NCBI GenBank assembly: GCA_023663365.1
Contig: JAMPHP010000003.1
Location: 1 to 64,000 of the forward strand
Origin: Muribaculaceae bacterium
GTDB lineage: Bacteria; Bacteroidota; Bacteroidia; Bacteroidales; Muribaculaceae
Reading direction: 5' to 3'
Length of the DNA: 64,000 nucleotides
Every line of letters begins with the position of its first letter. The first letter of the stretch is position 1. Position numbers and translations under genes: made by a program. Positions 13,856 through 25,536 of the stretch are shown one piece after another. The notes beneath the pieces are model-generated. The model saw only the letters and a list, made by a program, of their open reading frames with translations, searched no databases and was not told the origin of the DNA.

Positions 13856-14482
13856 ATGTCAGATAAATCAAAACCTGCCGATAGCAAAGCCCACGACCGC
13901 TTTGTAGAAATCTTGCGCTCCACCGGGCGTGAGAATATAGAGTATATAATCGAAGACCTCGAAAGCTGGGGCTTCTTCACCGCCCCGGCTTCGGCACAAG
14001 GCCACTATGCCTATCCCGGCGGCCTTGCCGACCACTCGCTCAATGTCTACGATGCCGCCATGAACACCCGCGAGTGGGTGATACGTGAGCGCCCCGACCT
14101 GGAGGCACAGCTCACCCCCGAGAGCATAGCAATATCGGCCTTGCTCCACGATGTGTGCAAGGCCGATTTCTACCGATTGGTGCGCAAGAAAAAGCGCAAT
14201 GAGATTGGTACCTACGAAGAGGTGGAAGCCTACGAAATCCACGATGAGAATTTTCCCGTGGGCCATGGCGAGAAGTCGGTAATTCTTCTTCTGCAATCGG
14301 GGCTCGACCTCACCGACGATGAAATCTACGCCATCCGATGGCATATGGGACCCTGGAATCTCTCGCGCGATGATGAGCGATTCTATCGCCAGGCATCGCG
14401 ACGCACACCTCTGCAGGCGCTCATTCATAGCGCCGACACTTTGGCATCGGCTATCCTCGAGCGTCAGGGAAATCTTAGTTAG
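13856..14482 (+). CDS. HD-domain phosphohydrolase-like protein
   Basis: 208 residues. Metal-binding HD-superfamily residues are visible: H60 (GGLADHSLNVYDAA), H98-D99 (ALLHDVCKADFY), and later HGEKSVILL, RWHMGP and a final HSADTLAS. This arrangement is seen in hydrolases annotated as HD proteins or 3'-to-5' exonuclease-like, but the substrate cannot be read from sequence. It follows cls by 13 bases. Its last eight bases overlap, tail to tail, the end of the M16 protease gene on the other strand. Confidence 0.85.
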   Translation: MSDKSKPADSKAHDRFVEILRSTGRENIEYIIEDLESWGFFTAPASAQGHYAYPGGLADHSLNVYDAAMNTREWVIRERPDLEAQLTPESIAISALLHDVCKADFYRLVRKKKRNEIGTYEEVEAYEIHDENFPVGHGEKSVILLLQSGLDLTDDEIYAIRWHMGPWNLSRDDERFYRQASRRTPLQALIHSADTLASAILERQGNLS

Positions 14483-17279
14483 CACTCATCACAAGTGCTG
14501 CTTTATGTGCCGGGAGTATGTAGCGGCGGGCAAAGTCGGCTACTGCTTCCGGCGTGATTTGCTCCACCGCCTTGGTGTATCCTCCGTCGAGGTCTACTCC
14601 GTCGCGCAGATATGTCTTGATTACTTTCAACCAATAGGCATTGTCGGCGGTGGCTTCATCATGGTTTTTAAGCAGATAGTTGCGGATGCCTGATAGCTCA
14701 TCGGCGCTTATGTCATTCTCCGAAGCGAGAGCCGTCACGGCCTCAAGCACTGCATTGAGCGACTCCTCCTCGCGCCCGGATGTCACCTTTATATATGTCG
14801 GCATCATCATCTGCGGCCCCGCCCCGGCGCTTACACCCGGATTGATGGCGCAGTGCGTCTTGATAGAGTAGGTCCAGCCTTTATCCTCGCGCAGATCGGC
14901 AAGCAGACGGCTGCGGAGCAGTTGCCCGAAAGCTGTGGCACAAAGCATATTGTGCAGAGTATAGGGGCAATCGCCACTGAAGAAGCTGTAGACTATCGCC
15001 TGCGGATTTTCCATGGCCTGTGAAAAGCGGCTGTCGAAGCTGTACGGTGTGTATATGTAGCCGAAATCGCGTGGCGTGTCCTTACGGCCCTTGGTCGGAA
15101 GGGAGGCTACGTAGCGCTTGAGCATGAGCTCAAGGCTGTCGGTGTCGAAATCGCCTGTTACCATAAAAGTGAAATCGCCCATGTCGGCAAATCGGTCGGC
15201 ATATATGGCTATAGCCTTAGCCATCGACACGGCCTCCACATCTGCCGGGCTCTGGCGTGCCGCCAGCGGGTGCCGGTTATAGATGCAGTAGTGTATGGAG
15301 TCGCCCATTATCTGCACGGGATTGAGCCTGCGGCCTGTGACCGAGGCACGCTGCGCATCCATGAAGTTGGAAAAGGCTGCCGTATCTGGCTCGAATGCGG
15401 TAGCTCTGAGATACAGCGCTTGAAAAGCCGTCTCGAGCCCTTGGCGGTTGGTGGCACTCTCAAGTCCTTCCTCCGTATTGCTCACGGAGGTCGACACCTT
15501 CACATTGTTGCGCGCCAGCACGCGCTGCATGTCGGCGGCACTGAGGCCGCCATGCTTCATGGCAGCCATCAACTCATTGATTACGCGCAGGGTGGGCACG
15601 TCGGCCTCATCATAGACCATGGATATTCCGCCCGGGCTATATCCGCGTACAAAAATCTGGTCGGGCTTGGCGCTGCTTCTGCGGGTCACTACGCGGATGC
15701 CGTTGGAGAGAGTGTAGACTTTCGCCCCGAAGCGGCCGAGCGAGTCGCTTGCGGTGATTTCGCCGGGTGCGGGCAGGGCGGTCATGAGGGCATCGGTATA
15801 GTCGCGCTGCACAAAGGGCGCGAATGAGCCCGAGGCTGTACTCCTGAAAGTGGCGCAGAGCTGAGCCTGCATGTCGTTGTCGCTGACATCGCCCTTGGGG
15901 CGGGTAAGGTATATCACAGCGCCTTTTGGGGCATCGCCCGCGGCGGAGCGTATGTAGCGCTCCACATCGGCAGGGCTTACGCTTGCAGCTACTTTTGCCA
16001 TGGCTCCGATATATTCTTCCTCACTTATCCTATGGCCGCCGTCGAGGAAGTGGCGCACCGCCTTGCGAGCCAAAGCAGTGTTGTCGGCTATTGTGTGCCG
16101 ACGCTTGCGCTCGGCCAGCGAGGCCTCGAGCTCTGCCCGCGCTTTATCTACTTCCGCCTGCGAGATACCGTGCTGCAGCACCCGCATCAGTTCGCCGTAC
16201 CATGTGGCGAGAGCATCGTTCTCGCGCCCGGCTTTCACCGTTCCCCGCATGGTGAGAGCCTGCTCGCCGCGGCTCATAAGGTACTTCACCTCGCCTACGC
16301 CCAGTGAGGTGTGCGGACACTCTGCGCTCGCCTCTATGTCGGCGAAGCGCTCGGCAAGAATACCCGAGGTCATGTCGGAGAGCACTTTGCGCTCAATCTC
16401 CGCATCGAGTCCGGCGGGAATACCGGGCATACGGAAGTAGAGCTGCAGCATACGCACTCCCTGCTCGGGGTCGCTTTCCACCACGCAGGTAAGAGTGTCG
16501 GCAACAGCCACTTCGGGGAGCTCAGCCAAGCGTCCGCCACGGGTCGCGACGGGCTCAAAGAGGCGCTTTATGCTCTTTTCCACGGCATCTGCATCGATGT
16601 CGCCGACCACTATCACTGCTTGATTGGCAGGAATATACCACTTGGAATAAAAGTCGCGAAGTGTGGCCGGATCGAAATTCTCAACCACGCTCATAAGCCC
16701 GATAGGAAGGCGGTTCCCGTAGGCCGAGCCTCCGTAAAGGCGAGGAAAAGCCCGCTCGAGCATACGGTTGGAGGCCGAGTTGCGTTGCCGCCATTCGTTC
16801 ACTATCACTCCGCGCTCGGCATCGATGTCGGCGTCGGCGAGCGTGAGGGCACAACTCCAGTCGCGCAGTATGAGCAGGCATGAGTCGACAGTTGATGCAC
16901 GCCTTGTGGGTGCTTTGCATATATTGTAGACCGTCTCGTCGGTCGACGTGTAGGCATTGAGGTGCGCGCCGAACTTCACGCCTATGCTCTCGAGATAGGC
17001 GATGAGGCTGTTGCCGGGAAAGTGTTCGGTGCCGTTGAAGCACATGTGCTCGAGGAAGTGTGCGAGGCCACGCTGGTTCTCATCCTCGTGGACCGAGCCC
17101 ACGCGCTGCGCGAAGAAATAGTCGGCCGTGCCTTCTGCGCTGTCGTTGTTCAGGATGTAGTAGGTGAGCCCGCCGGGGAGGGTGCCGGTGCGCATGTCCG
17201 GCGGGATATTCGCCGCGGTTGCCGAGGCCGCTCCAAGCACGGAAGCGACCGCAAGGATAGCTAATTTTCTGAATTTCAT
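14475..17279 (-). CDS. Large secreted M16 zinc protease (PqqL/FusC size class)
   Basis: 934 residues with a signal peptide (about 1-22), so periplasmic. The zinc site is intact: HFLEH at 74-78 in RGLAHFLEHMCFNGTEHFPG, with a downstream glutamate in ERGVIVNEW. The protein has the four-domain M16 layout, with a second half starting near residue 510 and a YSFFSGDCPY / DLREDKGWTYSIKTH region. Length and motifs resemble E. coli PqqL and Pectobacterium FusC, M16 proteases that work with a TonB-dependent receptor. It is the last gene of the receptor operon, 18 bases after the DUF6850 gene. Substrate unknown; the link to protein import is inferred from family and context. Confidence 0.92.
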   Translation of the reverse strand: MKFRKLAILAVASVLGAASATAANIPPDMRTGTLPGGLTYYILNNDSAEGTADYFFAQRVGSVHEDENQRGLAHFLEHMCFNGTEHFPGNSLIAYLESIGVKFGAHLNAYTSTDETVYNICKAPTRRASTVDSCLLILRDWSCALTLADADIDAERGVIVNEWRQRNSASNRMLERAFPRLYGGSAYGNRLPIGLMSVVENFDPATLRDFYSKWYIPANQAVIVVGDIDADAVEKSIKRLFEPVATRGGRLAELPEVAVADTLTCVVESDPEQGVRMLQLYFRMPGIPAGLDAEIERKVLSDMTSGILAERFADIEASAECPHTSLGVGEVKYLMSRGEQALTMRGTVKAGRENDALATWYGELMRVLQHGISQAEVDKARAELEASLAERKRRHTIADNTALARKAVRHFLDGGHRISEEEYIGAMAKVAASVSPADVERYIRSAAGDAPKGAVIYLTRPKGDVSDNDMQAQLCATFRSTASGSFAPFVQRDYTDALMTALPAPGEITASDSLGRFGAKVYTLSNGIRVVTRRSSAKPDQIFVRGYSPGGISMVYDEADVPTLRVINELMAAMKHGGLSAADMQRVLARNNVKVSTSVSNTEEGLESATNRQGLETAFQALYLRATAFEPDTAAFSNFMDAQRASVTGRRLNPVQIMGDSIHYCIYNRHPLAARQSPADVEAVSMAKAIAIYADRFADMGDFTFMVTGDFDTDSLELMLKRYVASLPTKGRKDTPRDFGYIYTPYSFDSRFSQAMENPQAIVYSFFSGDCPYTLHNMLCATAFGQLLRSRLLADLREDKGWTYSIKTHCAINPGVSAGAGPQMMMPTYIKVTSGREEESLNAVLEAVTALASENDISADELSGIRNYLLKNHDEATADNAYWLKVIKTYLRDGVDLDGGYTKAVEQITPEAVADFARRYILPAHKAALVMSAN

Positions 17280-17297
17280 ATTGATTTTATGTTGTTT

Positions 17298-18719
17298 TCA
17301 AAATTTGAATACTATGGCAGTTTTGATTCGGTAGCCGCAACTGCCGCCGGAAGCGTTGAGCGCCTGTGCTTCGGCTGCGATGCCGAGCGCACGCTTGCCA
17401 AAGATATAGTCGGCTCCCGCACCGCCTCCGGCCGCCAGAAGCCCGACGGCGTCCTTCGATACCCCTGCGTGTGCAGAGATGAGCCAGCGGCGTGACAGTA
17501 GGCGCACATATTCGCACTTTACGGCCGCCGTGATGCGTGAGGCCGTGCTGCGGAGTCGTGGCGACACTCCCGCATAGACTTCCGATGAATGAAAATATCC
17601 TGCCGATAAGCAGGCCTCAAAGCGCTGTTTGCCGGGAAGGACGTGTCGGTAGCAGGCTGAGGCACCGACGGAAAGTGTGCTGTAGCTGTATGCGGCCAAA
17701 GTGAACAGCTCCGGGTAGACATTGCCCGACGCATCGCCGAAGATACTCTCGCCTCCAAGGCGCTTACGGTAGCAGAAGTCTAAGCCCGTGCTCAGCACTG
17801 CGGAGCGCCAACCTATTTCCGCCTCTGCTTTGTGCTCTCTGATATGTTTCAAAGGAAGATTGTTGAGATCCTTGAGCGATTTGGTGAGAGTGAAGAAGGT
17901 ATATTGCGCAGTAGCGAAGTATCCGTCCTTTCCGGTCGGGAAGAGCGAGAGGCTATAGCTCTGGCGGTTGCCGGTGTAGAGCGATGCTTTTCCCTGCCCG
18001 GCAAAGCGGGCGTAGTGACTGCCCATGCCGGTGAGGTGGTACACGGGTACTTCACCTGTTTCGCTCACGAATATCACATCGGAGCTCTGCCTGTACTTGG
18101 CCACGTCTGCTCCCAGAGCCAGAATATAGCCGCCGAGCCTGCGCCCGAGGCCCGCTTTGAGGGAGAGGTCGCCGACGGTGTTCTTGGGGCGGGGATCCGC
18201 CTTGCGGTATTCCTGAAGCGCGCGGTAGGCCAAGCCTGCACCGTAGAGCCATGTGCCGCTCTTGAAGTCGGAAGAATAAGTGCCCTCAAAGATATAGCTT
18301 TCGCTGCTGTAGTTGCCCCCGAGCTCATCGGCGGTGAAGTAGGGAAAGACAACTGCGGGGTCCGACACATCGCAGTACTGCACACCGAAGCGCTTGCCAT
18401 TGCTGTATGAAGCCTTTCCGGTGATGGTTGAGCGCCCGTACTTCATATATGAGGCGGCCTCGAAAAATCCTGCTCCCGCACCTGTGCCGATGCCGAACAC
18501 GAGCTCGCTGCCTGTGTTCCGGCGGTCGAAGCCTGCCATGGCATGCGACAGCGACACATCGTGCTGCATGGGTATCAAGGCCGCATTGGCAAGGGCGAGG
18601 CGCGACGGTGCGTTGAAGAGCGTGTCATAGGCCATGATGCGATGCTCTATATCGGCAGCGAGACTATATGCCGCCGAGCTTATGCCAAGGCTGAATATCA
18701 GAAATCGGAGTGCGTTCAC
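17298..18719 (-). CDS. DUF6850-type outer-membrane beta-barrel protein
   Basis: 473 residues with a signal peptide (about 1-22) and many alternating strands ending in Phe (AIVFKF), the usual outer-membrane barrel insertion signal. Composition is rich in Tyr, Gly and Ser. It starts with GTG at 18719, overlapping the DUF4876 stop by four bases (GTGA), which argues for translational coupling. Genes of this type accompany DUF4876 lipoproteins and TonB-dependent receptors in Bacteroidales. Its role is unknown; a second channel or a surface partner of the receptor is plausible. Confidence 0.75.
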   Translation of the reverse strand: MNALRFLIFSLGISSAAYSLAADIEHRIMAYDTLFNAPSRLALANAALIPMQHDVSLSHAMAGFDRRNTGSELVFGIGTGAGAGFFEAASYMKYGRSTITGKASYSNGKRFGVQYCDVSDPAVVFPYFTADELGGNYSSESYIFEGTYSSDFKSGTWLYGAGLAYRALQEYRKADPRPKNTVGDLSLKAGLGRRLGGYILALGADVAKYRQSSDVIFVSETGEVPVYHLTGMGSHYARFAGQGKASLYTGNRQSYSLSLFPTGKDGYFATAQYTFFTLTKSLKDLNNLPLKHIREHKAEAEIGWRSAVLSTGLDFCYRKRLGGESIFGDASGNVYPELFTLAAYSYSTLSVGASACYRHVLPGKQRFEACLSAGYFHSSEVYAGVSPRLRSTASRITAAVKCEYVRLLSRRWLISAHAGVSKDAVGLLAAGGGAGADYIFGKRALGIAAEAQALNASGGSCGYRIKTAIVFKF

Positions 18720-19939
18720 AGTGCTTTCTCTATTTCAGATGGTGTGGCATCGGCGATGAAGTCGCGCCCCGAGTCGTTGGTCTTGCACAGTATCACGCGG
18801 CCGTCGGGAGTGGTGGCGGCCACGCGGCGCCGCACGGCATGGAAGTAGCGGTTCTTGTCGCCGTCGATAGTTCCGCAGGAGGTCCAGCCCATGTCGAGCG
18901 ACGGGGCCGTCACATTCCATTGATATGACGAGGCCACGGAGCAGGTCACCACATCGCAGATCCATTCGTTGGGTATTTTATAGCAGGTGCCCGACATCGG
19001 GAAGCTGCCGGCAGCTGTCACCTGATTGAACTCGTAGGAGTAGCGGTAATTCTCGAGATAGGTCTGCTTGTCAACGGGTATGCGTGCGAGAGCGTAGGCC
19101 TTGAATCCACGGTTATGCAGCAGCCACACGGTGTTGGTGTAGCAGTACCATTTGTCGAGATTTGGCACGGCCGGATTGTCGATGTCGCTGTACTTGGGGT
19201 TTGTGCTTTCATCGTACCACTCGAAGTCGGCGTGTGAGAGGTCGAAAGAGTTGGGGTTGAGCTCGCGGTGGTCGATGGCAATGTCGGCGATGAGTAGCGA
19301 GCCTCCGGGCTCAACCGGGTGCTCACGCCCGCTGCCGGGGATGAGGTAGACGGCATCGATGCTCATGGCTTGTGCCATGATGTCGGGCGTGTAGTCGAAC
19401 TTCTGTGTGGTGAGAAACTTCGACTCCACGATGGCGAGCCCGTCGGCGTAGATGGTGTGGTCGGTGTTGTTGTAGAGCTTGAAGTATTGGTCGCCGTTGT
19501 ATTGATTGCCGGAGGTCTGCAGAGTGCCGGTGTAGAACATTTCGGCGATTATGAGGTCGTCGGTAGGCACTATGGCAAAAGCCTCAAGGTTCACCGCAGG
19601 GCTCGTTGGGCCTAACTCACGGCAGGCTGCTATGGCCCGGACTTCGGCCACGACTCCGTCGGCAAGACTTGCCGTGGCCGTGTACGAAATATCGTAGAGC
19701 CCCGGCAGCACACTCACCCCGGCTTCCGGCTCTGAGCCGGTGTTGATGGCTACAGTCACTCCCGTGCTGATATTGTAGAGCGAAAAGCTGCCTTGGCCGA
19801 GTGTCGGCAGATTTACATCAGCAGGAATATTCACGCTGAGCCTCACCTGCACATCGGTGGGTGAGGTGAAGCCGTCGGTGCAGGCTGTGGCGAGCACGAC
19901 AGCGGCACCCAGTATTGTTTGTAAAATTTTGTTCATCAT
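18716..19939 (-). CDS. DUF4876 lipoprotein, receptor partner
   Basis: 407-residue lipoprotein: signal peptide with lipobox LATAC and lipidated Cys20. The rest looks beta-rich and contains LIIAEMFYTGT, YNGDQYFKLYNN and PGGSLLIADIAIDHR, a lamin-tail-like pattern typical of DUF4876. It is probably on the cell surface, where lipoproteins next to a TonB-dependent receptor act as ligand-binding lids. The start at 19939 overlaps the receptor stop by ATGA; a second ATG lies at 19936. The same frame is open upstream to 20482, but that is a shadow of the receptor gene. Confidence 0.8.
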   Translation of the reverse strand: MMNKILQTILGAAVVLATACTDGFTSPTDVQVRLSVNIPADVNLPTLGQGSFSLYNISTGVTVAINTGSEPEAGVSVLPGLYDISYTATASLADGVVAEVRAIAACRELGPTSPAVNLEAFAIVPTDDLIIAEMFYTGTLQTSGNQYNGDQYFKLYNNTDHTIYADGLAIVESKFLTTQKFDYTPDIMAQAMSIDAVYLIPGSGREHPVEPGGSLLIADIAIDHRELNPNSFDLSHADFEWYDESTNPKYSDIDNPAVPNLDKWYCYTNTVWLLHNRGFKAYALARIPVDKQTYLENYRYSYEFNQVTAAGSFPMSGTCYKIPNEWICDVVTCSVASSYQWNVTAPSLDMGWTSCGTIDGDKNRYFHAVRRRVAATTPDGRVILCKTNDSGRDFIADATPSEIEKAL

Positions 19940-22713
19940 AGTGTGAAGTTCAGTTCCATCCCGAAGTAGGCATCCGAGGAGCGGCGCACGGTCAGCCCCT
20001 TGTTGCTGTATGCCGGCAGATAGTCGAGGATGCGGTTCACGAAAAGAGCCACGCGCAGCCACTTGCCTATGGTTTTTGTGGCTTTGAGGTTGACGTAGAG
20101 TGCCGGAGGCACGGTGTAGGTGTCGTAGAGCTGTGGGTTGTAGTGGCGGATAAGATAGCGGAGCACCTCGTCGGTCTCGGCCTGTGAGGCATCGAAATGG
20201 TGGAGGAGACCGTCGGCAGCACTGATATATGAGTCGGGGGTGCCGTTCTGTGGCAGGCGGCGTGTCTTCACAAACCACATGCACTGCACGGTGGTGGAGA
20301 AAACGAGGCCAAGTTTCGGCAGCTGCGTGTCGAACATGAAGTTGGTGTTGAACTGATCGCTCACGCGCCCGTCGTCGCTCTTGTATAGACCCACGAAAAG
20401 GTCGCTTACAGCGGTGCCGCCCACAACGTCGGATACGGGGTCGAAGAGCATCTGCGAGTTGCTGTAGCGGGAGCGAAACCACGCGCCGGTCACGATGAGC
20501 GATGTGGCCAGTGGCTTCCAGCGTGCCGTGTTGAGCTGAAACTCAATGCCTCGCTTGTCGATGCGCGAACCGTTCTCGGCACGTCGATAGCCGCGGAGCA
20601 CACGCTCGTCGGTGGAGGGTAGGGTGCTGATGTCGGGCGGTGCCGTGAGTTCGCCGGGCTTGATGCCCGAAGCATCGTAGCGGGTATAGCCGTAGGCATC
20701 GTAGACGTTGGAGTATCGGAAACCTGAGTTGAGGTGCTCTTCAAAGTATGTCATCGACAGTCTGTTGGCACCGAGGCTCACACCGGCACGCACTTCCCAT
20801 TTGTGGTTGCGCGCAGGCTTGAGGCTGTAGTTCGTGGCATCGTTGATATATGTGCGTATGTTTACCCGGCTCAGTTCGGCGGGGCGCTCGGTGCTGTAGT
20901 AGCCGAGCTGAAGTATGTCGAGATAGGCCGGTTGAGGATAGAGGTAGTCGGCGGTCGGCATTCGGGTGCTCACGCCGTAGCCGCCCGCGAGCATCAGCTC
21001 AAGCCGTCTGCCCGCCACGGTCAGCGCCGGAAGGGTGAGTGTGGCATTGACGCGCGGGTCGAAGTACATCTTTCCGGCCATGGCATAGCGTCGGTCTAGC
21101 CCTGCGAGTGCTATGCCGTGCACGCCTGCCTGAATGTCGAAGCGACCTATGGGCGATGGTGTGCTGAAGGCATCTTCGGCATAGACCGATACGACGTTTA
21201 CTGCCGGTATACTGGAGTACGCGCGCGGGCGTGATGTCCACGACGCTGACAGCGGACGCATGGGGTCGTACACTTGGCCGCGCCCGTAGTTCTTGCTCAA
21301 TGTCCACTCTGAGCCGAGTTTGTAGCCATGGCTTGCGCCCGCCCACGCCGGCAGGTCGCCCTTAAGACCGAGTTTGGTAAAAATGCTCAGCGGCTTGCCT
21401 TCGCTGAGATAGTCGGCGATATACTCTTCGAGGTTATACACGCCGTCGTGTACTCCGGCCGAATTGCTCACCGGGGCCACTACCGGGCGCGATGGTGCCA
21501 CTTGCTTGCGGCGGGTGAGGCGGTCGAGGCTATATGAGGCCGAGAGCTTGAGGTCGATGCGGCGTAGCAAGGGCGTTGAACGAAGTGATAATGAAAGGTC
21601 GCTTGCAATAGCCCCGCGGTGGTTGTCGGCCTTGTATTCGTCGATTTTCACGAGCGATAGATCGGGGTCACTCTTGGCGCGGTCGACGGTGCCGGTGTAG
21701 TCGGCGGCAAAGGCCCACTCTGTGAGCATCGACGAATTTTCATGGGTGAGAGAGGCGCGCAGCGATGCCGTGATACGGCGAAAATTCTCCAGCGAGTTGC
21801 GCGGATCGGTCTTGCTGTCGAGCCACCCGAGGTCGGCGTTGAGAGTGTTGCGGCTGTCGCGGCCGAGTGTGAGTCCTTTGCCTATGTAGAGCAGTTTGCT
21901 GTAGCCGTCGGCTTTGAAGCGTGCGGTCAGTGGTGTGGCTTTGCGGCTGCGGCGTATATTCACCACGCCCGAGGTGAGGTTGCCGTACTCGGCCGATGGT
22001 ATACCGCGCACCACTTCCACGCTCTCGATATTGTCGGTGGCGAGTGTGCGCATATCCACACCGCGGTTCATGCTGTTGCGCCCGGTGGCCTCCTCGATGC
22101 CCACACTCTGGTGGTTGGCATCGTTCACTATCGGTGCGCCGTCGACGTTGAAGGCTGTGCCGAGTGCACTCATTGCATAGTCGGCATTGTCGCTCACCGT
22201 GCCGGTGGCTCCCACTGTGCCGGTCTCGCGCAGTCTGATCGAGTTTACCTTACCCATGTCGGGATTTTGCGAGATATTGCCCGGCAGGAGCTCAAGCAGA
22301 TCTGTGAAACTCGATGGCTGAAGGTGTGCCATTGCCGCACGGTCAATTCGCGAGGATGAGGTAAGGCCGCCCGACTCCTTTGCAGTGATGGTGACTTCGC
22401 GCAACTGCTCGCCTGCGGGCTTCATGCTGATTACAATAGAGGTGTCGCGGCGCCCTATGCTGATGATGCGGGAATATGGCTCGAAGCCGAGGTAGGAGGC
22501 TTTGACTGTGTAGGTGCCGGAGGGCAGATTGACGCTGAAGCGACCGTCGATGTCAGTCTGCACTGCTATGTGCCAGGGCTCGAAGGCCACTGCACACGAC
22601 ACCAGAGGGCTTCCGTCGGTGCTGTCGGTGGCAAAGCCCTCAACCACGGCCGCTTCGGCCATGGTTGAGGATACCAAAATACATGCTATGAATAGTATTG
22701 CTTCTTTTATCAC
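19936..22713 (-). CDS. TonB-dependent outer-membrane receptor
   Basis: 925 residues: signal peptide (about 1-21), a CarboxypepD-regulatory-like domain (about 22-97, VVEGFATDSTDGSPLVSC), a plug domain (about 105-255, containing VEVVRGIPSAEYGNLTSGVV) and a 22-strand barrel ending FGMELNFTL. There is no SusD partner; instead DUF4876 and DUF6850 genes follow with overlaps. The receptor therefore belongs to the non-Sus uptake class, candidates being metal complexes, heme or a protein ligand. It starts one base after the stop of the secreted protein upstream. A periplasmic M16 protease closes the operon. Confidence 0.93.
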   Translation of the reverse strand: MIKEAILFIACILVSSTMAEAAVVEGFATDSTDGSPLVSCAVAFEPWHIAVQTDIDGRFSVNLPSGTYTVKASYLGFEPYSRIISIGRRDTSIVISMKPAGEQLREVTITAKESGGLTSSSRIDRAAMAHLQPSSFTDLLELLPGNISQNPDMGKVNSIRLRETGTVGATGTVSDNADYAMSALGTAFNVDGAPIVNDANHQSVGIEEATGRNSMNRGVDMRTLATDNIESVEVVRGIPSAEYGNLTSGVVNIRRSRKATPLTARFKADGYSKLLYIGKGLTLGRDSRNTLNADLGWLDSKTDPRNSLENFRRITASLRASLTHENSSMLTEWAFAADYTGTVDRAKSDPDLSLVKIDEYKADNHRGAIASDLSLSLRSTPLLRRIDLKLSASYSLDRLTRRKQVAPSRPVVAPVSNSAGVHDGVYNLEEYIADYLSEGKPLSIFTKLGLKGDLPAWAGASHGYKLGSEWTLSKNYGRGQVYDPMRPLSASWTSRPRAYSSIPAVNVVSVYAEDAFSTPSPIGRFDIQAGVHGIALAGLDRRYAMAGKMYFDPRVNATLTLPALTVAGRRLELMLAGGYGVSTRMPTADYLYPQPAYLDILQLGYYSTERPAELSRVNIRTYINDATNYSLKPARNHKWEVRAGVSLGANRLSMTYFEEHLNSGFRYSNVYDAYGYTRYDASGIKPGELTAPPDISTLPSTDERVLRGYRRAENGSRIDKRGIEFQLNTARWKPLATSLIVTGAWFRSRYSNSQMLFDPVSDVVGGTAVSDLFVGLYKSDDGRVSDQFNTNFMFDTQLPKLGLVFSTTVQCMWFVKTRRLPQNGTPDSYISAADGLLHHFDASQAETDEVLRYLIRHYNPQLYDTYTVPPALYVNLKATKTIGKWLRVALFVNRILDYLPAYSNKGLTVRRSSDAYFGMELNFTL

Positions 22714-22714
22714 C

Positions 22715-24502
22715 TTATCGCACTATTACTTTGCGGCCGGAAACGATGTAGAAGCCTGCGGGCAGAGCCACCGTGGTGCTTTCACCGGCCGATAAGGCGA
22801 TGCTTGCCACCACACGGCCCGAAAGGTCGACGATTGTGGCCGCGAAATCCTTGTCGCAGCTCATGGTGAGGCTGCCGATACCGGTACGTACGGTGAATGT
22901 ATTGCTGTCGGGTGTCGTTGTAGCCACATTCTCTATGCCTGAGAGGAAGTTGCCGGGGAGTTGGACTCCTGCGGCGAATACGGCCCACTTCTCGGGTGTG
23001 GCCGATACTGCGCCGCCGATGCCGGTGAAAGCGGCGTTGCCGCGGGCGCTGATGTAAGCGCAGCCTTCGCTGGGGAGGTAGGAGAAGCCCGACGCCGCCG
23101 GTACTCCGCCGCCTACGAGCACGGGCCAGTCCTGCGAGGTGATGGGGGCGAGTGTCGCACTGCTGTAGCCTCGGATAAAGACGTTTTTCTGCGTCATGTT
23201 GTAGCCGTATACATAGATGGCATCGTCATCTGCCGGGCTTTTGACAGCGTGGAAATAGCCGATGAGATCCTTCGAGGGGTCGGCGTTGGCGCTGCCGAAA
23301 TCAGCCTTGCCGGCAGTTGCTCCGAGCCATCGGCCTGTGGTTGCATCGAATTTGAAGAGAAGGCCGTCGCGCAGAGTGCCTCCGCATGTGATTGTGTTCG
23401 CTACATCGCTGGGGTCGGTAAATCGCCCCGAGGCTTGTGCCGCAACCCAGAGGGTGCCGCCGTCGACAGTGAGGTGCGAATTTTGCCATCCGATTTGCCC
23501 CGACTTCTCGCTGAGGAGGCTTACGAGCCAATTGGCATTACCGGTAGTGAGGTCGAGGGCGCCGATGAAGGGCGTAATCAATTCGCCGGCCTTGATTTCG
23601 GCCTCGCCGAAGCTGCCTGTGTTACCATCCTCGGCTGTTGCCGTGCCCTCGAAGTAGAGCACGTTGCCGGAAACGGTGATGTCGAGCAGCGACGCGCTCT
23701 TAAGCGTGCCCGTGGAGCAGGCGCTGTCGAGATAGTAGCCGTCGGCATCGAGTCGGGCTATATAGAAAGAGGCTCCTGCAGCCGGTGCTATTTCGGCCAT
23801 GCTGCCGTCGGCTTTGGCAAAACCGAGCTCTGTGGAGAAACTGCCTGCTACATAGATGTTGCCGGTGGCATCGGTAGCTATAGCGGAGGTGCTGAGGCCG
23901 TCGGCTATAAAGGATTCTTCCGACCCTGTTGCGGCATTGATGGTGCGGAGCCATTCGAGAGTGCCCTCGGATGAAACTTTGCCTACAATGCCCATGTAGT
24001 AGCGCTTGTCTACAGCTGTCGAGAAGTCAGTGGACGTGCCTTCTGCATCGACAAGAGTAAGGGCGCGGTCGATGTATCCGTCGGTATGGCGTACTTTGGC
24101 GAAGAAAACCACGCCGCCGTCAGCAGTGCTGGCGAGGCCGCCCTGGTTAGCCATATAGTCGCCCGAGTTGGAGTAGACGGTCCAGAGAGCATTGCCTTGG
24201 CCGTCGGTCTTGGTGAGGCAGAAGTTATTTGCCACACTTGTGCCTGTATACGGCGATCCGGTGAAAATCTTCTCGCCGGCATAGAAAAGATCGGGAGCGG
24301 CATCGGTGGAGCCCAGGGTGTTGAGCCAGTAGATATTGTCGGCAGAAGTGGCAAGTACGGCGGTGCTGTTGTCGCCCGAAGAGGTGTTTCCGTCGAAGAG
24401 CTTGATCCACTCAACCTGAGGCTCTGTGAGAGCGGCCGATGCTGTGGCACAGAAGAGCAGGCAAGTACCTGCGAAGATGTGCTTTGATGTAGAAATGTGC
24501 AT
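22715..24502 (-). CDS. Secreted repeat-strand protein with type IX-like C-terminal tail
   Basis: 595 residues, signal peptide about 1-23. The body is a chain of short beta units reminiscent of a propeller (ADNIYWLN, ADGGVVFFAK, ATGNIYVAG, DDAIYVYGYN). The last ~80 residues are a type IX secretion/Por-like sorting domain, with DLSGRVV followed by LPAGFYIVSG and a basic end. It is the first gene of the receptor operon, read from the box at 24539-24532. It may be a surface or secreted binding protein for the ligand; no catalytic motif was recognised. Whether the organism has a type IX system cannot be seen here. Confidence 0.78.
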   Translation of the reverse strand: MHISTSKHIFAGTCLLFCATASAALTEPQVEWIKLFDGNTSSGDNSTAVLATSADNIYWLNTLGSTDAAPDLFYAGEKIFTGSPYTGTSVANNFCLTKTDGQGNALWTVYSNSGDYMANQGGLASTADGGVVFFAKVRHTDGYIDRALTLVDAEGTSTDFSTAVDKRYYMGIVGKVSSEGTLEWLRTINAATGSEESFIADGLSTSAIATDATGNIYVAGSFSTELGFAKADGSMAEIAPAAGASFYIARLDADGYYLDSACSTGTLKSASLLDITVSGNVLYFEGTATAEDGNTGSFGEAEIKAGELITPFIGALDLTTGNANWLVSLLSEKSGQIGWQNSHLTVDGGTLWVAAQASGRFTDPSDVANTITCGGTLRDGLLFKFDATTGRWLGATAGKADFGSANADPSKDLIGYFHAVKSPADDDAIYVYGYNMTQKNVFIRGYSSATLAPITSQDWPVLVGGGVPAASGFSYLPSEGCAYISARGNAAFTGIGGAVSATPEKWAVFAAGVQLPGNFLSGIENVATTTPDSNTFTVRTGIGSLTMSCDKDFAATIVDLSGRVVASIALSAGESTTVALPAGFYIVSGRKVIVR

Positions 24503-24554
24503 GATAGTCGATAGTTTTGTAATTTCGAGTGCAAAATTACGACTACCGACTATC
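24503..24554. repeat. 12-bp inverted repeat bracketing the receptor-operon promoter
   Basis: Left arm GATAGTCGATAG (24503-24514) lies directly before the start codon; right arm CTACCGACTATC (24543-24554) lies upstream of the -7 box. Arms match at 11 of 12 positions and are 28 bp apart. A further CGACTAC at 24540-24546 makes three CGACTAY copies. This looks like a regulator site or a leader/promoter hairpin. Confidence 0.6.
24532..24539 (-). promoter_or_regulatory. -7 box TAATTTTG of the receptor operon
   Basis: Minus strand TAATTTTGCACTCG, 30 bases before the ATG at 24502. It matches TAnnTTTG with the GCACTC extension found at the tRNA and GH89 promoters. It lies inside the inverted repeat 24503-24554. 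Confidence 0.7.
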
Positions 24555-24674: not shown

Positions 24675-24702
24675 CTAATCATTGGAATATCGCTTAACGC
24701 TT

Positions 24703-25536
24703 ATGAAAGCCGAAGAAATACGGAGTCTATTTGACAGTTTTGAATCAATAGCCATCGAGTATGAGGGTGTTGAATGTTGGAGTGCTCGCGAGCTTGCCCC
24801 TGTTATGGGTTACGTCCAGTGGCGGAACTTTCAGTCGATTATAGAAAAAGCCAAAGAATCGGCTGAAAACGCCGGGGAGTTGATATCAGACCATTTTGCC
24901 GGCGTCAGCAAAATGGTTGCGCTTGGTTCCGGCGCTGAACGTCAGATAGATGATGTAATGCTTACTCGCTATGCCTGCTATCTTGTAGCGCAAAATGGCG
25001 ACCCTCGTAAGCCCGAGATTGCTTTTGCTCAAAACTATTTTGCGGTGCAGACTCGCCGTGCCGAACTTGTGCATCAGCGACTTCTCGACTACGAGCGAGT
25101 GCAAGCGCGAGCCAAACTTGCTGAGACGGAGCATGTTCTTTCCGGCGTGTTATATGAACGCGGGGTTGATTCCAAAGGTTTTGCAATAATACGTACGAAA
25201 GGCGATCAGGCTCTGTTTGGACTTAACACAGCGATGATGAAGCGACGTGTGGGTGCACCCGACAAGCGTCCGCTTGCCGATTTCCTTTCAACTCTCGCAA
25301 TTAAAGCCAAGGACTTTGCCGCCGAAATGACATCTGTCAATGTTCAGCAGAAAGACCTCAGGGGTCAAGTAAGGATAGAGCGTGAGCACATTGATAATAA
25401 TTTCGCTGTCCGTGAGATGCTTCTCGACCGTGGAATCCGACCTGAAGTACTTCCACCGGCCGAAGACATAAAGAAAGTGGAACGTCGCCTTAAAGCCGAT
25501 GAGAAGAAAATTCTCCCTAAGAATAAAAAGATCTAA
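24703..25536 (+). CDS. dinD: DNA-damage-inducible protein D homologue
   Basis: 277 residues resembling E. coli DinD: an N-terminal Bro-N-like part (WSARELAPVMGYVQWRNFQSIIEKAKES) and a middle region LTRYACYLVAQNGDPRKPEIAFAQNYFAVQTR that is strongly conserved in the family. E. coli DinD is an SOS-induced protein that inhibits RecA filament activity; the role here is inferred. ATG 24703 was chosen; a TTG at 24682 is too near the promoter. Base composition is clearly more AT-rich than neighbours, with different codon choice, suggesting acquisition. No SOS box was recognised, as the Bacteroidota consensus is not known to me. Confidence 0.85.
   Translation: MKAEEIRSLFDSFESIAIEYEGVECWSARELAPVMGYVQWRNFQSIIEKAKESAENAGELISDHFAGVSKMVALGSGAERQIDDVMLTRYACYLVAQNGDPRKPEIAFAQNYFAVQTRRAELVHQRLLDYERVQARAKLAETEHVLSGVLYERGVDSKGFAIIRTKGDQALFGLNTAMMKRRVGAPDKRPLADFLSTLAIKAKDFAAEMTSVNVQQKDLRGQVRIEREHIDNNFAVREMLLDRGIRPEVLPPAEDIKKVERRLKADEKKILPKNKKI

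Follow-up and report, generated by a model that had tools for sequence, protein, structure and literature searches.

An outer-membrane receptor operon with a linked PqqL/FusC-type M16 gene in Muribaculaceae

We analyzed 64,000 nucleotides from a Muribaculaceae bacterium (the window: the whole stretch, positions 1 to 64,000 of contig JAMPHP010000003.1, forward strand) and focused on an operon of five genes that runs from 24502 down to 14475 on the minus strand. The genes encode, in order, a secreted protein, a TonB-dependent receptor (TBDR), a lipoprotein of family DUF4876, a putative outer-membrane barrel of family DUF6850, and a single-chain M16 protease. In the sampled genomes of the family Muribaculaceae, this type of M16 gene always lies in an operon with TBDR, DUF4876, and DUF6850 genes, and some relatives carry genes for other likely peptidases beside a receptor core of this kind. 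From this pattern, the receptors may serve to feed on proteins or peptides, perhaps for their iron.

The operon and its products

The genes and a candidate promoter element are as follows, in the order of transcription.

24532..24539, minus strand: candidate Bacteroidota -7 box, TAATTTTG, 29 bases 5′ of the first ATG (position checked)
22715..24502, minus strand: secreted protein, 595 aa; weak signals of a beta-propeller and of a type IX tail
19936..22713, minus strand: TBDR, 925 aa, GTG start, with a Plug domain and an N-terminal CarbopepD_reg extension
18716..19939, minus strand: DUF4876 surface-type lipoprotein, 407 aa (PF16215, 232.6 bits; lipobox by eye)
17298..18719, minus strand: DUF6850 putative outer-membrane barrel, 473 aa, GTG start (PF21012, 229.8 bits)
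14475..17279, minus strand: M16 protease of 934 aa, predicted to be periplasmic; a single chain of PqqL/FusC type, with HFLEH at residues 74-78 and matches to M16 and M16_C

In operon order, the genes are separated by 1, -4 (ATGA), -4 (GTGA), and 18 bases, and the 3′ end of the M16 gene abuts a convergent HD-domain gene (13856-14482). We re-derived the coordinates and found the Pfam matches to be over their cut-offs, which bears out the initial annotation of this DNA as to gene order, spacing, the DUF4876 and DUF6850 families, and the intact 934-residue M16 protein. With a TBDR gene followed by a DUF4876 lipoprotein gene and then a DUF6850 gene, the locus has the arrangement that defines a DUF4876/DUF6850 operon.

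The M16 protein matches the Pfam models M16 (84.6 bits) and M16_C (103.9 bits), both over cut-off. In addition to the HFLEH motif, both candidate distal glutamates (E155 and E162) are present, as is the R797/Y804 pair of the second lobe, and the N terminus has a signal-like stretch, as read by eye. A profile of the M16 protein aligned over its full length with PqqL (1.4e-119) and with 6b03 (5.5e-64), which is FusC by length and title; in the available part of one paper, the name FusC is given to 6B05 (PMC12731061). The earlier description of a protease of PqqL/FusC size with an intact HFLEH is upheld by the length, the two full-length alignments, and the active-site residues. The protein has the features of a PqqL/FusC-type M16B enzyme, namely HxxEH, a distal glutamate, two linked lobes, the R/Y pair, ~930 aa, and a signal-like start. 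Its nearest solved structure is 9ldy (481 bits), to which the other full-size M16 of the same genome is nearer (657 bits).

HxxEH is kept in all 43 operonic M16 entries of at least 800 aa (39 distinct) and also in L261 (loci are designated by L numbers); in L131, the active site reads HFMEH. Behind the full-length operonic M16 gene of L007 lies a 369-residue M16 C-lobe-like piece (L007:13204-14313), which has the R/Y pair and is without HxxEH.

The TBDR matches Plug with 39.6 bits and carries an N-terminal CarbopepD_reg_2 extension (41.7 bits). When compared with the PDB using phmmer, it had no matches at 1e-3; a profile of 11 receptors had five, namely one carboxypeptidase and four receptors of Bacteroidota type or N-terminal domains of such receptors. 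FusA and YddB were absent from the matches in both of these sequence comparisons. The lipoprotein has the lipobox ...VVLATAC, and a profile of 11 DUF4876 relatives matched 4q1z, a solved putative lipoprotein (E = 2.1e-22). Glycan uptake of the SusC/SusD kind was rejected, since the receptor scored 49.8 bits with the SusC/RagA model TIGR04056, whose cut-off is 368, and the lipoprotein matched DUF4876 alone in Pfam. The DUF6850 protein is called a putative outer-membrane barrel on the basis of the initial annotation and a terminal aromatic residue.

The secreted protein had been described as carrying a type IX tail. The tail signal is sub-threshold (Por_Secre_tail TIGR04183, 17.4 bits, where 23 would be needed); in its favor, the genome encodes a homologue of the type IX secretion system sortase (861 bits against a cut-off of 420). 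The beta-propeller signal is likewise below cut-off (SBBP, E = 0.042). Three relatives of this protein (L007:167-2005, L043:506-2407, and L008:2233-4125) have a terminal dockerin of type I (32-39 bits) in place of the type IX-like tail.

The M16 gene and other modules in DUF4876 operons

We collected relatives of the M16 protein by a tblastn-confirmed search of genome contigs and took the best 80. All 10 relatives of at least 37% identity sit in TBDR-DUF4876-DUF6850-M16 operons. The 70 relatives at 36% identity or less show neither DUF4876 nor DUF6850 (37 of them have 5 kb on both sides), and some TBDR lies several kb away in two. Other full-size Bacteroidales M16 proteins, which are 9ldy-like, share the length and active site of the window M16 and differ from it in their surroundings. 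Three loci of the family (L231, L233, and L239) have two or three full-size M16 genes clustered on one strand, with no DUF4876 in the stretch.

An M16 that scores 682 bits or more occurs in 28 of 198 Muribaculaceae genomes; the next of the matches listed scores 545 bits. In all 28, the gene lies in a TBDR-DUF4876-DUF6850-M16 operon, at a spacing from the barrel gene that ranges from a 4-base overlap to 121 bases (start codons were assigned by rule). In 26 of the 28 genomes, the operonic M16 is an extra paralogue, since another M16 match at 1e-100 or better occurs there (among the matches listed). In a sample of 393 genomes of the order, no M16 from outside the family exceeded 565 bits among the matches listed. 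These 28 genomes and the 10 closest relatives confirm that the M16 gene is part of the operon, as first annotated.

We call this M16 type clade A. On the receptor tree, all 36 testable clade-A operons fall into one starred clade with M16-less receptors as neighbors, and every one of the 36 testable entries of this receptor clade has an M16-derived gene, either full-length or reduced to the C-lobe. The simplest account is one M16 gain at the base of the clade-A receptor clade. The large trees were made with FastTree, and for the receptors there was a warning of long branches meeting among the M16-less members.

We surveyed DUF4876 loci more widely. DUF4876 is present in 90 of the 198 family genomes and 71 of the 393 order genomes, and DUF6850 is present in 91 of the 198. 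The family sample comprised 98 DUF4876 loci from 90 genomes, of which L223 (below cut-off, with stops and no readable gene) was left out to give 97; the sample from outside the family comprised 20 stretches, the top-scoring of roughly 100 places. Open reading frames were read from stop to stop. M16 genes were not counted as operonic if they scored below 250 bits (L193, L195, L201, and L262), lay on the opposite strand, or were more than 9-10 kb away. DUF6850 adjoins DUF4876 in 93/97 family loci and 19/20 outside loci. An M16-derived gene is present in 37 of the 97 family loci: 28 of clade A, six of a second clade (clade B), and three with the C-lobe only.

Clade B, which was sampled from DUF4876 loci, comprises the six family loci and L261 outside the family. 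Its M16 gene is the first gene (L166 and L167), follows the lipoprotein gene (L153, L155, L156, and L261), or lies one gene past the barrel gene (L152); L152 and L153 end at contig edges. On the M16 tree, starred branches part clade B from clade A, and other full-size M16 proteins lie between. Forcing the two clades together was rejected by the approximately unbiased (AU) test with p = 0.027, a moderate value for groups that were named after the tree had been seen. Judging from these trees, the second M16 clade appears, with moderate support, to have joined DUF4876 receptors separately. Chance adjacency of the M16 gene was discarded, given the linkage in 28/28 genomes and the second M16 clade in DUF4876 loci.

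In other operons, the slot that follows the barrel gene is taken by one to three genes for proteins of ~720-770 aa with a C25-like N-terminal domain and HEAT repeats (15/97 family and 2/20 outside loci). The domain keeps H-x-H-G and A-C-x-N-G in 24/24 entries, and the Pfam C25 model of the gingipain family matches 2 of 14 N-terminal domains (best E = 2.9e-6). Motifs and matches are thus shared with gingipains (family C25, clan CD), from which the module differs in its fusion to HEAT repeats and in a domain without a PDB match; we regard the protein as a weakly indicated, putative cysteine peptidase. Tandem C25-like/HEAT genes, two or three in number, lie behind the DUF6850 gene in L171, L205, and L208. 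In L215, the gene after the C25-like/HEAT gene (L215:512-2056) has a weak, below-cut-off match to the papain family (C1; E = 0.019). A third module contains ABC and DUF4857 genes; PepSY accompanies it in 1 of 32 family loci and 5 of 7 outside loci. Two kinds of module at one locus were never seen within 9 kb on the same strand in the fetched loci.

The three C-lobe-only operons (L130, L135, and L136) have, in the M16 slot, a gene for 450-479 aa with its own signal-like start. The products align from about residues 474-505 to residue 932 of the window M16, and HxxEH is found in none of the three; for L130 and L135, the inactive M16_C domain is the sole match. A contig break is ruled out for L130, since its genome is a single contig. 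On the receptor tree, the C-lobe-only state needs two changes. The C-lobes of L135 and L136, the sole pair tested, are 78% identical, and the proportions of nonsynonymous and synonymous differences (pN 0.14 and pS 0.75, the latter saturated) indicate that this remnant is under purifying selection in these two loci. The C-lobe-only genomes also encode small M16B candidates of ~410-430 aa.

Relatives of the secreted protein occur, among the fetched family loci, in 16/28 with a clade-A M16, 3/3 with the C-lobe only, 1/6 with a clade-B M16, and 0/51 without an M16; outside the family, they occur in 12/17 M16-less loci. Because 12/17 M16-less loci outside the family have it and only 1/6 clade-B loci do, the secreted protein tracks clade-A receptors and their out-of-family neighbors, not the protease as such.

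Possible roles of the receptor-linked protease

We favor the view, at about even confidence, that the operon encodes an outer-membrane uptake cassette in which the receptor, the DUF4876 protein, and the DUF6850 protein import a ligand, a dedicated periplasmic M16 digests it, and the downstream module fits the ligand. The surface lipoprotein, TBDR, and partner barrel would capture and import the ligand, and the M16 protease, placed in the periplasm on account of its signal-like start, would then digest it. The ligand would probably be a small polypeptide or peptide carrier, most plausibly one bearing iron or haem. To an older core, lineages would have added their own downstream module: clade-A M16 (as in the window), clade-B M16, C25-like/HEAT, ABC/DUF4857, or none of these. 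Since lineages differ in their module and each locus has one kind, the module probably follows ligand chemistry. A single receptor family that has acquired two unrelated likely peptidase types and two M16 clades suggests, for the lineages concerned, that the ligand is a polypeptide. If this is correct, Muribaculaceae, a major gut family, would import polypeptides of host, dietary, or microbial origin along a route that was assembled separately, and the downstream module of an operon would predict the kind of ligand that its receptor takes up.

The link to iron is suggested by DUF4876/TBDR operons of other species that respond to iron or haemin, as given in the accessible parts of two papers. 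Under iron depletion, P. gingivalis PG1019-1022 increases 20.8- to 214.5-fold, and in B. thetaiotaomicron BT3625-33 increases 36.7- to 128-fold and BT1933-39 3.5- to 7.4-fold (PMC10434189). When haemin is in excess, a P. gingivalis DUF4876 gene is under-expressed, with a log2 change of -5.42 (PMC10470040). PG_1019 and PG_1020 are also among the genes tabulated for expression in work on P. gingivalis PG_0686 (PMC10101095), which carries no weight here. All three operons have the TBDR and DUF4876 core in common with the window operon. By that paper's annotation, which is the sole basis of this comparison, BT1933-39 includes a HEAT-repeat protein and BT3625-33 includes PepSY, ABC, and DUF4857 proteins (PMC10434189), which resemble two of the alternative modules.

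The closest known systems in their presumed working are Fus (FusA/FusB/FusC/FusD) of Pectobacterium and YddA/YddB/PqqL of E. coli, in which, as in the window, a TBDR gene is linked to a gene for a single-chain periplasmic M16 of ~930 aa. Uptake of proteins through TBDRs followed by periplasmic digestion has been described for Proteobacteria, in a survey that, in the part available, began from FusA homologues and reports that the protease is attached patchily to receptor clusters there too (PMC6793856). The window receptor has no similarity to FusA or YddB that is detectable at the level of sequence, and in place of FusB and FusD its operon has a surface lipoprotein and a DUF6850 protein. No gene resembling FusB (TonB-like) or FusD/YddA (ABC) was found among nine genes scanned, these being the five operon genes and those for DinD-like, DcaP-like (below cut-off), HD-domain, and cardiolipin synthase proteins. 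The initial annotation had proposed a Bacteroidales counterpart of FusA/FusC and YddB/PqqL. This is borne out in part: the M16 type and its linkage to a receptor stand. Because the receptor shows no FusA homology by sequence and FusB and FusD are missing, we rejected membership in Fus and file the operon as working like Fus. We found no description of receptor-linked M16 proteases in Bacteroidetes or Muribaculaceae in the open-access literature, which was covered mostly by titles and the starts of abstracts, and nothing there on DUF6850, 9LDY, M16 structures from Bacteroides, or protease-linked uptake in Muribaculaceae. What appears to be new is that a protease has been swapped into a DUF4876 receptor cassette.

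Several observations weigh against an uptake-and-digestion cassette. Most DUF4876 loci have no M16: 60/97 in the family (in nine of these, the contig ends less than 3.5 kb past the barrel or lipoprotein gene) and 19/20 outside it (17 with none, two with less than 3.5 kb of contig left), where one locus has one. The initial annotation had named absence of the M16 gene from most relatives as an argument against itself; such absence is the rule across DUF4876 operons and is not seen in the receptor clade of the window (an M16-derived gene in 36/36 testable entries). The protease was added to a receptor core that already existed. In 32/97 family loci and 7/20 outside loci, the non-protease ABC/DUF4857 set is in the slot or nearby, and 13/97 and 10/20 loci, some of them cut by contig ends, have no M16, C25-like, or ABC/DUF4857 module. 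As for the alternative peptidase, whole C25-like proteins gave one C25 match, below cut-off, and none in six others scanned, and a profile of the domain had no match in the PDB. The AU value is moderate, and the M16 groups were named with the tree in view. Three clade-A operons retain the non-catalytic lobe alone, and an inner-membrane transporter is absent from the window operon. In the available text, PG1019-1022, BT1933-39, and BT3625-33 list no M16, and their iron response is known from those species, not from the lineage of the window (PMC10434189); E. coli deletions of yddB and pqqL are reported to cause no growth defect in iron-limited LB (PMC6793856).

A more sweeping version, which we put forward tentatively and hold less likely than the cassette itself, is that DUF4876-DUF6850 receptors are a general Bacteroidota platform for polypeptide import, to which digestive modules (two M16 clades and the C25-like proteins) have been attached separately, with a single module in each operon. 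The non-catalytic M16 lobe would, in some lineages, act by itself as a periplasmic capture protein.

The strongest competitor, although in our judgment unlikely, is import of a small ligand such as iron, haem, or a siderophore-like compound, of the BtuB/BtuG or HmuR/HmuY type, with the M16 serving in quality control or processing of the operon's own outer-membrane, secreted, or lipoproteins. Pairs of a receptor and a lipoprotein for small ligands are common in Bacteroidota, and the many M16-less DUF4876 receptors fit this. Within the family, so does the company that the secreted protein keeps, since it accompanies clade-A M16 genes and C-lobes and is absent from M16-less loci; however, M16-less loci outside the family keep it and just one clade-B locus has it, and we doubt that the M16 is a maturation enzyme for the secreted protein. 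Moreover, nearly all of the genomes already have another M16, and a shared ligand chemistry better accounts for two unrelated likely protease types after one receptor core.

Of all the observations, retention of the C-lobe hints most strongly at a role of the M16 beyond cutting. It is nonetheless improbable that the protein mainly binds, as a periplasmic clam-shell that captures the ligand or unfolds it with cleavage secondary, such that the non-catalytic lobe can suffice in some lineages. The C-lobe genes, with a signal-like start and no HxxEH, arising by two changes and strongly constrained between L135 and L136, are what such a role would leave behind. Against it, every full-length operonic M16 keeps HxxEH, and the C-lobe could pair with one of the small M16B proteins encoded elsewhere in those genomes. 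Whichever holds, the C-lobe-only genes are a natural experiment on non-cutting roles of M16 enzymes.

Least probable of all is a protective M16 that destroys antimicrobial peptides or bacteriocins entering through this receptor: antibacterial proteins are reported often to target TBDRs (PMC6793856, available part), and an enzyme that cuts peptides and is tied to a single kind of receptor would suit defense too, but an M16-derived gene in all 36 testable entries is steadier than expected of an arms-race gene, and the lobe without catalytic residues that persists in three operons should not protect by cutting.

The upstream region

The candidate -7 box has the form TAnnTTTG, which we take to be the Bacteroidota -7 consensus. 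A TAnnTTTG box also lies 37-40 bases 5′ of the secreted-protein gene in L002 and L003, and TAATTTTG itself precedes the TBDR gene in L139 and L154. A sigma-70 promoter scan gave four hits against a shuffle mean of 5.8, which is no excess over shuffles. With no excess in the scan, a single promoter for the whole operon is no more than plausible. No regulator site was established in the upstream regions by eye and by a check for TAnnTTTG, with no motif search run, and an Rfam scan of the window found one tRNA and nothing else.

The 1-base junction between the secreted-protein and TBDR genes is atypical of the other fetched loci that have the secreted-protein gene upstream on the same strand, where the spacing is ~200 (L002), ~175 (L003), and ~90 bases (L130). 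This spacer contains a TAATTTTG box in L002 and none in L003; L002 and L143 are one contig. In the window, an inverted repeat on the minus strand (24503-24554), with the arms GATAGTCG (24547-24554) and CGACTATC (24503-24510), flanks the candidate -7 box; both arms are missing from the regions upstream in L002 and L003. Divergent from the operon and upstream of it, on the plus strand, lies a gene for a homologue of DinD, DNA damage-inducible protein D (24682-25536; 344.8 bits against a cut-off of 242).

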